Assembly: GCA_947567625.1 (NCBI GenBank)
Contig: CANONN010000029.1
Coordinates: 1-43,738, forward strand
Direction of reading: 5' to 3'
DNA length: 43,738 nucleotides
Source of the DNA: an uncultured Roseburia sp.
GTDB taxonomy: Bacteria; Bacillota; Clostridia; Lachnospirales; Lachnospiraceae
The position numbers and the translations under genes were made by a program. The notes under the pieces were generated by a model. It saw only the letters and a program-made list of their open reading frames with translations. It did no database searches and was not told the origin of the DNA. Below are positions 33,302 to 39,019 of the stretch, in pieces. Each line of letters starts with the position of its first letter. Position 1 is the first letter of the stretch.

Positions 33302-34855
33302 CTACGCGCCGCTGTCTGCGGCGTTCTCCAAGGCAAAACGCAGCGAAGACCCGAATCCCGCAAAGATCTTTTGCACTTCATCGGCAGACAGCTCCACCGT
33401 CACGGCCCAAATACCGCCTTCCCCCTGCCCGATTGCAAGGATGGGCGTTTCGACCAGAAGCTCTGGTGCATTACCCGCCGAACTCTGCGGCAAATCTGTT
33501 TCCTCTTCGGTACTTTCCTGATAAACGGACAGCATATCCCCGGTTTGTGCCGTCTCAATCTCCGGCACCACGCCCCCGGGAAAGGTAAAGCGGTAATCCG
33601 TTCCTTCCGCGCGCTCTAACGCACACCCCTGCCACATCACGACAATACTCTCCGCCGCCGTCTGGAAAGACGCTGGCCAGGTTTCCTGTATAAAAACCTC
33701 GTCTCCTTTCGGGAATGTAATGCACACCATATCTCCTGGTAACAGCTCCTGCTCGTCACGCTCAAAGTAAGTATACACCTTATCCGCAGCCGGTATTTCC
33801 ACCTCCCCCACTCCCGGAACCGCCAATAGGCGGCGGGCACTTCCCTCGAACTGCATATCTGAAACCACACCATAATAGACTGCCTGCCCCGCTTCCGCCT
33901 CTTCTGCCGTCCGTTTTGGATTTGCCAGAAGCATCACTCCCACGGCAGTGCAGATAGCGGCCACAAGCAAAGCGGCAAATACGGCCGGTTTCTTATAGCG
34001 GAGTACATTCTTAATCCGTCCCCCGGTCTCACCCTCGCCAAAGGCCAGCGGCACTTTGTTGAGCCGACGCTTTCCCGTCGCCATGCGCAGCAGTGACGCA
34101 GAGTACTCCTTTTTTACGTCCGCGCCCATTTTGCCAAGCACCGCCTCGTCGCAGGACATCTCCATATCTTTTTCGCTCAGGAAAAATGCCGCCCAGGCCA
34201 ACGGATTAAACCAGTGCAGGCTAAGCGCCGCAAATGCTGCTATTTTGAAAATATGATCTCCCCGTTTCAAGTGAATCTGTTCATGCAGCAAAACATATCT
34301 TTCTTCATTCTCTTCCAAATGCGCAGGCATATAAATTTTGGGCCTTATCACCCCAACGACAAACGGTGTTTCCATCTGCTCCATGCGATAGATATTATCC
34401 CGTTCCCGTCTGGCAGTCTTCAATCTCTTGTTCAGGCGTACAAACGATACGGCGCTGTATGCTGCCATTAAGCAGATGCCGGCCAGCCAGATGACACTTC
34501 CGGCTCCAACAAGCGCTTCCAGATTGTTTCCTTGCGGCGCCGCTACATTCGTCTCCCCCTGAGGCTGCAAAGTATCCGCCCCCTCAGACGGCTCCTCTGC
34601 CGTCTGACGTATCAAATCCTCGGAAATATATACGATCCTGCCGTTGGAAGTCTCTGAAGGTTCCAATACCTGCAACGGCGAAAATACGGCTGAAAAAGAC
34701 ACCGGACAGAGCAATCGCAGCAAAACCACCGCCCACAGACAATAAGAAAAAATCTTTGGCGCCCTGCGCAAGAACATCCGCATAGCCAGCACCGCCAGTA
34801 TCACAAAACTGCCGGTCAGACTCATATTCAAAACTCTGATAAATAATAGCTCCAT
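33302..34855 (-). CDS. BlaR1-like M56 metallopeptidase sensor
   Basis: Membrane metallopeptidase of family M56, 517 aa. Hydrophobic segments lie near residues 10-28, 38-58, 118-140 and 290-313; a BlaR1-type zinc motif HEQIH sits at 191-195 in the cytoplasmic loop, with the third ligand in EMSCDEAVL. In BlaR1/MecR1 this domain cleaves the BlaI repressor after sensing. The extracellular C-terminal part (about 314-517) is not a penicillin-binding domain: no SxxK, SxN or KTG set is seen, so the signal is something other than a covalently bound beta-lactam. ATG 34855 follows a GAGG box. It follows the BlaI gene on one transcript. Confidence 0.9.
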   Translation of the reverse strand: MELLFIRVLNMSLTGSFVILAVLAMRMFLRRAPKIFSYCLWAVVLLRLLCPVSFSAVFSPLQVLEPSETSNGRIVYISEDLIRQTAEEPSEGADTLQPQGETNVAAPQGNNLEALVGAGSVIWLAGICLMAAYSAVSFVRLNKRLKTARRERDNIYRMEQMETPFVVGVIRPKIYMPAHLEENEERYVLLHEQIHLKRGDHIFKIAAFAALSLHWFNPLAWAAFFLSEKDMEMSCDEAVLGKMGADVKKEYSASLLRMATGKRRLNKVPLAFGEGETGGRIKNVLRYKKPAVFAALLVAAICTAVGVMLLANPKRTAEEAEAGQAVYYGVVSDMQFEGSARRLLAVPGVGEVEIPAADKVYTYFERDEQELLPGDMVCITFPKGDEVFIQETWPASFQTAAESIVVMWQGCALERAEGTDYRFTFPGGVVPEIETAQTGDMLSVYQESTEEETDLPQSSAGNAPELLVETPILAIGQGEGGIWAVTVELSADEVQKIFAGFGSSLRFALENAADSGA

Positions 34856-34866
34856 TATTCCTCACC

Positions 34867-34952
34867 CCTCGCGTTCCTCAGTCCTTATGCGACAAATTAA
34901 ATATGTATTCAGCACACACTGGATTTTCCCACTCCTCGCGTTCCTCAGTCCT
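34867..34952. repeat. 19-bp direct duplication at the blaI/M56 junction
   Basis: CCTCGCGTTCCTCAGTCCT occurs at 34867-34885 and 34934-34952, 67 bp apart. The second copy covers the last codons of the BlaI gene; the first lies in the intergenic gap just before the M56 start. Confidence 0.85.
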
Positions 34953-35304
34953 CATGTGCGTCAATGAGTTTTTTCAATTCCAAAATTTCCCTGTCGCTCA
35001 ATGTTTTCCTTCTGGAAAAAGCCGCCAGAAACCGCGGAAGCGAACCGTCAAATGCTTCGTTAATAAATTGTTCCCCCTGTGCCGCCAAAAAATCTTCTCT
35101 TGTCATAAGTATTTTGACAATGCCTCCTTCGTTGACAAAGATCTGTCGGTCACACAGCCTTTTTAACATCGTATAAGACGTAGTCCTTTTCCACGCAAAT
35201 ACATTTTCGCACAGCTTGGCCAATTCCCCGGAGGCAATCGGTGCATGTTCCCATATAAGCTCTGCAAATCTCTGTTCCATCTCGCCCAATTTAAATCGTT
35301 CCAT
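34945..35304 (-). CDS. BlaI/MecI-family repressor
   Basis: A 119-aa winged-helix repressor, the usual partner of M56 sensors. The HTH region is LGEMEQRFAELIWEHAPIA then KRTTSYTMLKRLCDRQIF, and the C-terminal helices (EQFINEAFDGSLPRFLAAF) form the dimer interface. ATG 35304 follows GGGAGG; the longer frame from 35421 reads through the operator and is not credible. Two 19-bp dyads at its own promoter fit autoregulation. Cleavage by the M56 protein downstream would relieve repression (inference from the family). Confidence 0.9.
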   Translation of the reverse strand: MERFKLGEMEQRFAELIWEHAPIASGELAKLCENVFAWKRTTSYTMLKRLCDRQIFVNEGGIVKILMTREDFLAAQGEQFINEAFDGSLPRFLAAFSRRKTLSDREILELKKLIDAHED

Positions 35305-35350
35305 AGATACCTCCCTGCGCACTCGGCGTCCTCGCGTCCCGACAGCCAGA

Positions 35351-35394
35351 AGTCTAACGGCATTAGACTTCGTATAGTCTAACATGATTAGACT
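35351..35394. promoter_or_regulatory. Double operator for the BlaI-like repressor
   Basis: Two 19-bp dyads with identical half sites: AGTCTAA-cggca-TTAGACT (35351-35369) and AGTCTAA-catga-TTAGACT (35376-35394), 25 bp apart. They cover the -10 element and the start of the blaI transcript. The half site differs from the TACA/TGTA core of staphylococcal and bacillar BlaI sites. Confidence 0.8.
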
Positions 35395-35405
35395 GGCGCT
35401 GTCAA
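35376..35405 (-). promoter_or_regulatory. Promoter of the blaI-M56 operon
   Basis: Minus strand TTGACA (35400-35405), 18-bp spacer, TAGACT (35376-35381), the latter inside an operator dyad. Confidence 0.7.
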
Positions 35406-35417
35406 CCCAAAAATATC

Positions 35418-36041
35418 TCACTCCTCCGTTACGATCTGATATTCCATCTCCCGCGTCTCACAGAGCTCGCCGTTTTCACTCTGCAAGAGTTGCCGTTTCC
35501 TCAAAAAATCCTCTCCGCCCTCCTGGCCCATGACCGCACGCCAGGAAAACGTTTGATATTTTTCGTACATTTCTATGTAAGTTCCTATCTTAGCCGGGAG
35601 CCACACCCAACCGGACAGTTCGTCATAGCAGGCATGCAGCGCAGTGTCCGAAAAACACAATTCCACATAAGCGCCTCCCACTTCTGTCATGCCCCGGCTC
35701 ACAGCAAAGTCGTGCAGTACCTTAGTAACCTCGGCAAAATCCGCTCTCTTTTTTTCGTTTGGCAGGCAAAGCCACCGATATGTGTTTTCCGCCGTCTCAC
35801 TTTTCAACTGCACGGCGAGTTTAGACGCGCCGCCCGCGCTCTCTCGCCATAATTTTATGATATGCCATCTCGTTTTAGAGGGCATCACAAATACATCCTC
35901 TTCCTGACGCTCCAAACAAAAGCGTTTAAATCGCTCCGTCAGGGAGCTTTGACTCTCAATTATTATGAACAGAGCACAACATATAACCGTTACTGCCAAC
36001 AACCTTCTCCCCCGTCTCTTATGTCTGATTTTCTCTTTCAT
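35418..36041 (-). CDS. Unknown membrane-anchored protein
   Basis: I do not recognise this 207-aa protein. It has a basic N terminus (KEKIRHKRRGRR), one hydrophobic segment (about residues 13-29) and a mixed, probably extracellular domain of 175 residues with several cysteines and tryptophans, such as WRESAGG and LSGWVWLPAKIG. No enzyme motif is evident. The ribosome site before ATG 36041 is weak (AGGA very close to the start). It lies directly downstream of an inverted-repeat-flanked segment beside a serine recombinase, and upstream of the BlaI/M56 genes, so it is the first candidate for control by that element. Confidence 0.65.
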   Translation of the reverse strand: MKEKIRHKRRGRRLLAVTVICCALFIIIESQSSLTERFKRFCLERQEEDVFVMPSKTRWHIIKLWRESAGGASKLAVQLKSETAENTYRWLCLPNEKKRADFAEVTKVLHDFAVSRGMTEVGGAYVELCFSDTALHACYDELSGWVWLPAKIGTYIEMYEKYQTFSWRAVMGQEGGEDFLRKRQLLQSENGELCETREMEYQIVTEE

Positions 36042-36067: not shown

Positions 36068-36213
36068 AAAAAAGTGTACTTTTTTAGCTTAAAATATCAC
36101 TGTACAAATTTACCAAAATTTCATGAAAATTGTATGAAATCTATTTTTATTTATTTGCATTTGTTATATAATATGTATGTTTTTTATAACAATTAAAAAA
36201 GTACACTTTTTTA
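36068..36213. repeat. Putative invertible segment with crossover-like sites
   Basis: AAAAAAGT-GT-ACTTTTTT at 36068-36085 and AAAAAAGT-AC-ACTTTTTT at 36196-36213 are exact reverse complements (19 bp when the next base is included). Each has palindromic 8-bp arms around an asymmetric dinucleotide, the layout of serine-invertase crossover sites, with centres 128 bp apart. The enclosed DNA is very AT-rich and contains a promoter-like sequence pointing to the gene at 35418-36041. The adjacent recombinase gene ends 14 bp away. Inversion is inferred, not shown. Confidence 0.65.
36165..36193 (-). promoter_or_regulatory. Candidate promoter inside the invertible segment
   Basis: Minus strand TTGTTA (36188-36193), 17-bp spacer, TATATA (36165-36170), facing the unknown gene at 35418. 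The opposite strand has TTTTTA-17-TATAAT (36144-36149, 36167-36172), so a promoter-like element might face that gene in either orientation. AT-richness makes false matches likely. Confidence 0.4.
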
Positions 36214-36227
36214 TCAGACAATATAAT

Positions 36228-36833
36228 CTATTGCCCGGCGTACCGGCTGGCCTTATATTTGAAGGTCGACAACGGCATCTGGCACGCATTGGCGGCTTCG
36301 CAGGTACTGATCTCTTTCGTCTGCCACAATTGATATATCTCTTCAAAGTTGTCGGGCAGCGGCACGGGCTTGCGGCCAAATTGAACGCCTCTCGCTCTTG
36401 CGGCCGCAATTCCCTCCGCCTGCCGCTGCCTGATATTTACCCTCTCATTCTCCGCCACATAACTTAAAAGAGACAGCACAATATCGCTGATAAATGTCCC
36501 CATCAGATTCTTTTCGCGCCTCGTATCGAGAATCGGCATATCAAGCACCACGATATCGGCTTTTTTCTCCTTGGTGATGACACGCCATTGTTCATTCAAA
36601 TCCCCGTAATTTCGCCCCAGTCTGTCAATTGATTTCACATAGAGGATGGAATCCTGGTCGAGCTTTTTCAGCAATTTTTTATATTGGCTGCGCTCGAAAT
36701 CTTTTCCCGACTGCTTATCCATAAATATATTTTTGCCCGGCACCCCCACTTCCGTCAATGCAATCATCTGGCGTTCCTCGTTTTGATCTCTTGAAGATAC
36801 CCTAATATAGCCATAAATCTTTGTTTCCCTCAT
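36228..36833 (-). CDS. Small serine recombinase (resolvase/invertase family)
   Basis: Site-specific recombinase, 201 aa. The catalytic domain (about residues 1-130) has the nucleophile Ser13 in YIRVSSRDQN and the arginines of KSIDRLGRNYGDL (71 and 74), then the long dimer helix around NERVNIRQRQAEGIAAARARGV. A C-terminal helix-turn-helix (about 155-200, EISTCEAANACQMPLSTFKYK) binds DNA. Size and order match Hin/Gin invertases and Tn3-type resolvases. ATG 36833 is chosen; a GTG at 36839 is also possible. It ends 14 bp from an inverted pair of crossover-like sites, which suggests a local DNA inversion role rather than transposon resolution. Confidence 0.9.
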   Translation of the reverse strand: MRETKIYGYIRVSSRDQNEERQMIALTEVGVPGKNIFMDKQSGKDFERSQYKKLLKKLDQDSILYVKSIDRLGRNYGDLNEQWRVITKEKKADIVVLDMPILDTRREKNLMGTFISDIVLSLLSYVAENERVNIRQRQAEGIAAARARGVQFGRKPVPLPDNFEEIYQLWQTKEISTCEAANACQMPLSTFKYKASRYAGQ

Positions 36834-37128
36834 AATCACTCACCATGCCTCTCTTTCTTGCTCCATGCTTACTCCGTGTTTTATCTATTTTTCGCAGCAA
36901 CAAGATCTTTTCGTCATACAAAAAAGACCCATTGTAAACGGCGCATCATAGAATTTGATCTCTCTGCACCATAGACAATGGGTAGTATTTGTATTTTATA
37001 TGAAATTATCGGCTATTTGTGATTTTCAGGGCAGCCTTCTCTTCCTTCCGCCTAACGCTCGATGCATATAGGCCGTTTAAAACGTATTGAACTATGATTT
37101 GTAGAAGGCAGAAATGATTTTTCTGACA
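36834..37128. other. Intergenic region upstream of the recombinase
   Basis: No gene seen. It holds a terminator for the gene at 37129-37731 and presumably the recombinase promoter, which I could not place with confidence. Confidence 0.4.
36920..36983 (-). terminator. Terminator after the unknown gene 37129-37731
   Basis: Arms ACCCATTGT (36927-36935) and ACAATGGGT (36975-36983) with a 39-nt loop; on the minus strand the stem is followed by TCTTTTTTG. Confidence 0.7.
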
Positions 37129-38769: not shown

Positions 38770-38870
38770 GAATGATTTACCTCCTTATTTTATTTTTGTC
38801 ACAAAAAGACATTGAGGTTCTTACAGATTGTTTTATATCACAGAAAATGCAAAGCAATTGCTATGATATG

Positions 38871-38897
38871 AAAAACCCTCCTGCTAAGACAGGAGGG
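38871..38897 (-). terminator. Attenuator terminator upstream of rplJ
   Basis: Arms CCCTCCTG (38876-38883) and CAGGAGGG (38890-38897) followed on the minus strand by TTTTT, about 100 bp before the rplJ start. Confidence 0.88.
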
Positions 38898-38927
38898 CAG
38901 TAAAATCATCGTTGTAAAACTTTGATT

Positions 38928-38988
38928 CCCTCGGCAGGCCGCTACGGTTACGCCTTACGGCACCTGCTGTCTTCGGCAACATACTTTG
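38928..38988 (-). promoter_or_regulatory. Ribosomal protein L10 leader
   Basis: On the minus strand the transcript shows GCCGAAGACAGCAGGTGCC, then GTAAGGCGTAACC, then GCCTGCCGAGG, the conserved pattern of the L10 leader that binds the L10-L12 complex. With the terminator just downstream it provides feedback control of rplJ-rplL. Confidence 0.88.
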
Positions 38989-38990
38989 TG

Positions 38991-39019
38991 AGTATAACAT
39001 TATATCATGCGGTTGTCAA
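38991..39019 (-). promoter_or_regulatory. Promoter of rplJ-rplL
   Basis: Minus strand TTGACA (39014-39019), 17-bp spacer, TATACT (38991-38996), directly before the L10 leader. Confidence 0.88.

Follow-up and report, generated by a model that had tools for sequence, protein, structure and literature searches.

The locus examined here raises the question of whether a small serine recombinase gene and two inverted 18-bp sites beside it make up a DNA-inversion switch, as an initial annotation had proposed. The window, by which we mean the whole stretch of 43,738 nucleotides that was analysed, carries the following elements at this position.

36228..36839, minus strand: small serine recombinase of 203 aa with a GTG start (ATG at 36833), with a resolvase/invertase catalytic domain and C-terminal helices
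36195..36212, minus strand: predicted recombinase-proximal crossover site, read on the minus strand as AAAAAAGT-GT-ACTTTTTT (arm, centre, arm)
36068..36085, minus strand: predicted distal crossover site, read on the minus strand as AAAAAAGT-AC-ACTTTTTT, inverted with respect to the proximal site
36086..36194, no strand: A+T-rich segment of 109 bp, predicted to invert from the behaviour of orthologous pairs of relatives

We consider the locus to be a self-contained DNA-inversion switch, with a probability of about 0.8. The sites themselves are unambiguous. Both are exact 18-bp matches, AAAAAAGTGTACTTTTTT at 36068-36085 and AAAAAAGTACACTTTTTT at 36195-36212, and they are the sole matches in the window when up to two mismatches are allowed, where dinucleotide shuffles average 0.02. 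They sit within a 19-bp inverted repeat, 36068-36086 and 36194-36212, that is 100% complementary. The claimed pair is real and perfect, with the second site one base lower than first placed (36195-36212 rather than 36196-36213). The core-to-core distance is 127 bp with a 109-bp segment between the 18-mers, and the proximal site lies 15 nt from the recombinase stop codon (36228-36230). A reading of the sites as a terminator was rejected, as the proximal site, folded together with 26 nt of sequence to its left and right, reaches only −6.5 kcal/mol.

The recombinase is in good agreement with an intact enzyme. It matches Pfam Resolvase PF00239 (E 8.4e-27) over profile positions 1-144 of 145, and R9, S11, R46, D68, R69, and R72 (alignment numbering), which we take to be the catalytic residues as in γδ and Sin, are invariant in 9/9 aligned sequences (the window protein and eight relatives); the Ser and Arg residues described as intact are so. 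A PDB sequence search returned Sin/Bin3 and γδ. The structure model (mean pLDDT 79.7, pTM only 0.50) predicts a long helix at 108-145 followed by helices at 161-169, 175-181, and 186-198, with γδ resolvase 1zr2/1gdt as the best Foldseek match. By comparison with γδ, the three C-terminal helices are read as a putative helix-turn-helix. Upstream of the gene, a 30-nt imperfect inverted repeat (77%) occurs at 36916-36994, perhaps the terminator of the 37129-37740 gene, and a ribosomal protein L10 leader (RF00557, 75.7 bits) lies at 38860-38994.

On the other side of the site pair, the genes and regulatory elements are as follows.

35418..36041, minus strand: orphan 207-aa protein with a hydrophobic N-terminal stretch (by eye), the first gene past the distal site and the probable switched gene
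35376..35405, minus strand: promoter-like site TTGACA-18-TAGACT, with 10/12 matches (shuffles mean 0.1), placed to serve BlaI/M56
35351..35394, no strand: two 19-bp operator-like repeats, AGTCTAAC...TTAGACT, overlapping the TTGACA-18-TAGACT site
34945..35421, minus strand: BlaI/MecI-type repressor, Pfam Penicillinase_R E 4.8e-18 over residues 45-154
33302..34855, minus strand: M56 (BlaR1-type) membrane metallopeptidase, Pfam PF05569 E 3.9e-55

The gene order is as originally described, a membrane protein followed by a BlaI/M56 pair. The membrane protein has no Pfam or NCBIfam match, its start codon is 24 nt beyond the edge of the scored distal site, and it is present in 1/63 genus genomes, namely its own; the gene upstream was found in 8/63, the seven others at 35-48% identity. 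The 19-bp repeats are probably BlaI operators, and while the BlaI ORF extends to 35421, an ATG near 35304 is by inspection the more likely start. Because the BlaI/M56 pair has its own promoter-like site and operator-like repeats, it probably falls outside the directly switched unit. The direct target of the switch is probably the orphan membrane protein only, and any effect of inversion would be on its expression.

The segment had been described as AT-rich and carrying promoter-like sequences. It is A+T-rich and contains a TATAAT hexamer, but a promoter within it is no more than putative: the best promoter scores in the two directions, 5.8 and 6.8, equal the shuffled mean (6.5 ± 1.9), and none of the three sigma-70-like sites found in the promoter scan lies within the 109 bp. 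This chance-level score suggests a reading in which the family is active in inversion and the window copy has decayed or become locked, such that the sites remain with no working promoter or with a flip of no consequence. The segment was found in a single orientation when a flipped copy was sought in its own assembly, and contig C29 assembles straight through it, unlike contigs C2 and C62 discussed below. However, decay would be expected to erode the recombinase, the repeat, and the spacing, whereas this copy has an intact recombinase, a perfect 19-bp repeat, and a 127-bp spacing that corresponds to 12.1 helical turns (10.5 bp each) and is in phase with that of the relatives. We regard a locked copy as unlikely and favor a switch that would still be active at this locus, with the adjacent recombinase as its probable enzyme.

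Other loci in the same genome bear a resemblance to this one. The paralogue on contig C101 (recombinase at 357-944, sites at 84-101 and 221-238) has a layout like that of the window; its sites are fully palindromic and AT-centred, each the centre of a 34-bp perfect palindrome, with outer arms that differ between the two. A further paralogue, on contig C6, has a GTGTAC...GTACAC pair that is more degenerate. The end of contig C2 reads ...CTACTTTTTTA (L005:1501-1519) and the start of contig C62 reads TAAAAAAGTAGG... (L006:1-20), which places complementary CT/AG-centred half-sites exactly at the two contig ends. By eye, the C2 half-site faces a flavoprotein-like gene and that of C62 a large membrane protein gene, which among 299 family genomes was found in its own genome only. 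No recombinase of the window family was detected on either contig. If the two contigs are adjacent, such ends are what an assembler leaves when both orientations are present; this is suggestive only, and the half-sites may possibly mark an inverton acted on in trans and present in both orientations. Three other contigs (L016, L216, L051) end in or at the edge of a proximal site; they belong to a set of 18 loci whose sequence ends <1380 nt after the stop, at least one of which (L023) was limited by the fetch.

Relatives of the recombinase were gathered by protein search of 146 related genomes and 397 family genomes, by region fetches, and by a protein search of GTDB r220 (one genome per species), from which the best 80 of at least 569 relatives were taken. 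The searches yielded 190 different recombinase loci, counting that of the window; 11 had <250 nt after the stop and were dropped, which left 179. An initial scan with 18-mers also returned A+T-rich chance pairs (L024, for example), and the main counts therefore use a GTNNAC-core test together with pseudo-stop controls. An inverted pair with GTNNAC cores follows the recombinase stop in 92/179 loci and in 0/513 pseudo-stop controls from the same loci; when a second, core-independent test is added, the figures are 104/179 and 3/513. The proximal core begins 5-35 nt past the stop in 42 of the 46 pairs with a score of at least 12. Homologous loci that keep the recombinase but lack the sites had been named as evidence against a switch. 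Most loci pass this check, 104/179 having kept the paired sites, but 75/179 keep the recombinase with no pair by either test used, and in some of these the absence is clear. Among these 75, degenerate pairs are visible by eye in, e.g., L018, L019, L103, L105, and L120. By eye, no pair is seen near the gene in L014 and L015 (71-73% identity), and the region after the stop is likewise free of such a pair in the more distant relatives L228 (62%, phage-labelled), L229 (53%), and L230 (48%). The sequence of the sites varies together with that of the recombinase (Mantel r 0.34 for the C-terminal domain and 0.29 for the catalytic domain, 0/500 permutations each, shared ancestry still included). Two loci have unusual arrangements. 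L026 carries an inverted site pair upstream of the recombinase gene, where a switch might control the recombinase itself. L040 has three sites, at +45, +127, and +250 relative to the stop; two of them share one orientation and the third is inverted, a layout with which both inversion and deletion could be possible.

The polarity of the pairs bears on a second reading, in which the enzyme is a resolvase of the plasmid or transposon type and the paired sites are binding subsites of a res-type resolution system. The sequence and fold are nearest to Sin/Bin3 and γδ resolvases, as given above, and plasmid homologues exist, at 48-53% identity among 20 listed of at least 5000 matching records. However, the directly oriented sites of such a system are not what we observe. 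The window pair is inverted, and orientation-blind pairing of 90 loci gave 75 inverted, 13 palindromic, 1 direct (L212), and 1 other (L109), such that 75/77 pairs whose centres have polarity are inverted; L109, and L212 with it, are probable false pairs. Near-universal inverted polarity is a requirement of inversion and not of resolution. In addition, orthologous loci show reversed segments, where deletion would have removed the segment. Site polarity and the flips seen between relatives led us to reject the resolvase reading, which we hold to be very improbable.

The flips were found by comparing the segments of loci with a scored pair, to which L094 and L100 were added. Twenty-two locus pairs shared at least ten 8-mers in one orientation; 4 were flagged as flipped, and many others were distant and unreversed or undecided. 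Orthologous pairs were defined as those with both recombinase and distal flank at least 79% identical, six of which are in the 22-pair comparison, with L043/L227 in addition. Of these seven, five have a clearly reversed inner segment between unreversed flanks, one is weakly reversed, and one is unreversed. In L076/L138, the recombinase and the distal flank are 1.00 identical, while the inner segment is 0.99 identical as the reverse complement versus 0.57 forward. Their half-sites are exchanged, and inversion in silico makes 259/260 nt identical for any crossover from −1 to +9 of the core. L049 and L050 (the latter Extibacter muris DSM 28560) match at 578/606 positions of the gene and 270/283 of the distal flank, with the inner segment at 58/121 forward versus 87/108 reversed. 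Inner segments are likewise reversed in L094/L100 and L093/L142, weakly so in L123/L125 (0.70 reversed versus 0.60 forward), and unreversed in L074/L133. The fifth clear case is that of L043 and the phage-labelled fecal contig L227 (122/131 reversed, 88/157 forward), where the cores are palindromic GTATAC. A flip at these cores indicates that centre polarity is not essential. A non-palindromic centre, as the initial annotation described for both sites, is thus not required; palindromic AT centres occur in 12/92 pairs (13/90 in the orientation-blind set). We note that the orthologous pairs come from different assemblies and are differences between genomes, not switching within one culture. The proposed inversion is in this way supported through the relatives, with their paired sites kept and their segments reversed, and not through the window locus.

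A third reading, that the near-palindromic sites between the recombinase and the BlaI operon are operators for the recombinase (autoregulation) or for BlaI without any recombination, is barely credible and was rejected on the half-site exchange, since that exchange and the segment reversal in relatives need strand exchange, BlaI has its own, different operator-like repeat, and operators have no reason to be oppositely polarised.

Returning to an inversion switch, the spacing of its sites follows the DNA helix. Core-to-core distances fall into groups at 113-116, 123-128, 134-139, 145-149, 156-158, 166-167, and 176-179 bp, with ten further spacings at 63, 185, 205, 207, 211, 229, 241, and 261 bp as well as close to the edges of the groups. 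Periodicity is strongest at 10.35 bp (R 0.68, n = 90, a set containing the two probable false pairs L109 and L212), and 0/20000 jittered sets match the observed value at 10.5 bp. As relatedness inflates these unthinned figures, the thinned values are the safer guide: 4/20000 jittered sets at <70% protein identity (n = 22) and 552/20000 at <65% (n = 14). Between 100 and 200 bp, 76/85 spacings are within 2 bp of a multiple of 10.5 bp (38% expected) and 9/85 are out of phase. Three GTATAC cores are present in both L043 and L227, from about +27 to +164 after the stop; the segment flipped between these loci is bounded by the two outermost cores, which are 137 bp or 13 turns apart, rather than by the third, which lies 118 bp from one of the two. 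From the phasing we infer that two recombinase dimers may meet directly via a short loop, an arrangement in which the sites must share one face of the helix.

Promoter direction can be called in part of the set of relatives. One 63-bp pair (L212) was omitted from the promoter, next-gene, and hairpin analyses, leaving 91/92 pairs, among which L210, with two recombinases, was entered twice with the same values in all three. Of the 91 segments, 53 have the better sigma-A-type score (by >2 units) in the direction of the recombinase, 18 have it in that of the next gene, and 20 score similarly both ways. The better promoter is at least 2 sd above shuffles in only 47/91 segments, so the direction is uncertain in about half. 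The promoter TTGCTT-16-TATAAT is shared by the flipped pair L049/L050 and points in opposite directions in its two members. Orientation is also associated with a hairpin, assessed by folding 26 nt either side of the proximal core with a 6 kcal/mol threshold that was picked post hoc. Where the promoter points toward the recombinase, the hairpin is stronger by at least that amount in the segment as it stands in 23/53 cases and if flipped in 2/53; where it points toward the next gene (ON), the counts are 3/18 and 7/18 (rank test p 0.0025; Fisher p 0.0005 on the four counts, with related loci kept and noisy promoter calls). From the predicted folds, a terminator-like hairpin spanning the proximal site thus seems to form in the OFF orientation and would be split in the ON orientation. 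At the window locus, such a hairpin across the proximal site is absent.

The genes past the distal site vary. The mechanically chosen next ORF is co-directional in 83/89 loci, 2/91 being too short for a call, and 68/89 of these ORFs were scanned with Pfam and PADLOC. Among 25 listed of 68 Pfam families are C5 DNA methylases (3), MmeI-type methyltransferases (2), flagellins (2), acyltransferases (2), glycosyltransferases (2), S-layer proteins (2), LRR_5 (4), and DEAD-type helicases (4), and the 25 listed of 109 PADLOC families are type II and related DNA methyltransferases, with 3 members each. The pairs L103/L105 and L075/L079 have the recombinase, the upstream context, and most of the segment in common and differ in downstream sequence, which points to a possible exchange of cassettes near the distal site. 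In L105/L120 and L133/L135, mainly the recombinase and parts of the segment are in common.

Taken together, these data are consistent with the following scheme. A recombinase dimer would bind each near-palindromic site, and the two dimers would meet as the ∼127-bp segment bends into a short loop. The enzyme would then cut around the central GT, rotate, and rejoin the strands, leaving the 109-bp segment inverted. Among the related segments, about half have a sigma-A-type promoter that stands above chance, and this would face either the gene past the distal site (ON) or the 3′ end of the recombinase (OFF); in the window, the gene in the switched position is the orphan membrane-anchored protein. 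More broadly, we see even odds that these loci belong to a large group of minimal serine invertases in gut Clostridia, so far little described and in need of no distant enhancer, in which dimers synapse across a loop of 11-17 turns, helical phase rather than polarity dictates inversion so that palindromic sites also invert, and a portable phase-variation cassette sits before surface, glycan, flagellin, and restriction/defence genes, with an OFF hairpin across the proximal site in many copies that is undone in ON. Inversion switches are known; in this case, genomes alone are enough to read off the enzyme family, the site, the spacing rule, and the flipped states. The rule predicts that a half-turn insertion stops the switch and that a full-turn insertion restores it, and it offers a way of finding such switches without reads. 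In gut anaerobes, a compact switch whose site is defined would be of practical use. The results also suggest phase-variable restriction and surface genes in Lachnospiraceae and Oscillospiraceae, which would affect phage susceptibility and host interaction.

Among known systems, Sin/Tn552 Bin3 and γδ resolvases are the nearest solved sequences and folds to the window recombinase. In the res architecture, subsites lie within one recombination site; the window, unlike Sin or γδ, has two inverted sites around a short segment. The Mpi-type invertase of Bacteroides fragilis is a serine invertase that flips short promoter segments, and the window recombinase scores 40.7 bits against the Mpi family NF009949, below its 272-bit cut-off. 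The RecV switches of C. difficile likewise provide clostridial phase variation through short inversions; RecV is a tyrosine recombinase. In gut invertons of the PhaseFinder type, invertible promoters close to surface genes are flanked by short inverted repeats, and inverted repeats around a short segment are what the window locus has. A 2025 survey of invertons in hCom2 names tyrosine-type invertases when it lists the gene families with enrichment near invertons, and its main text does not contain the word "serine" (PMC11892184); a 2025 review of phase variation mentions a serine recombinase for Hin (PMC11868660). Among the titles and abstract openings listed by our search, outside which most subscription literature lies, we found no account of the recombinase family, its site, or the helical spacing of inverton sites. 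The Hin, Gin, and Cin invertases also pair a small serine recombinase with the inversion of a promoter-bearing segment. Their sites are near-palindromic with a 2-bp centre, and the Hin segment is about 1 kb. P1 Cin compares with the window recombinase at 32.8%, and a long segment of the Hin/Gin type, about 1 kb with an enhancer between the sites, is not present. In the Hin system, the enhancer to which Fis binds is located between the two hix sites, at a distance of about 100 bp from one site (PMC3798978, which also cites experiments on the helical phasing of this enhancer). Unlike in Hin, the whole window segment is 109 bp, and it is the two sites themselves that are helically phased.
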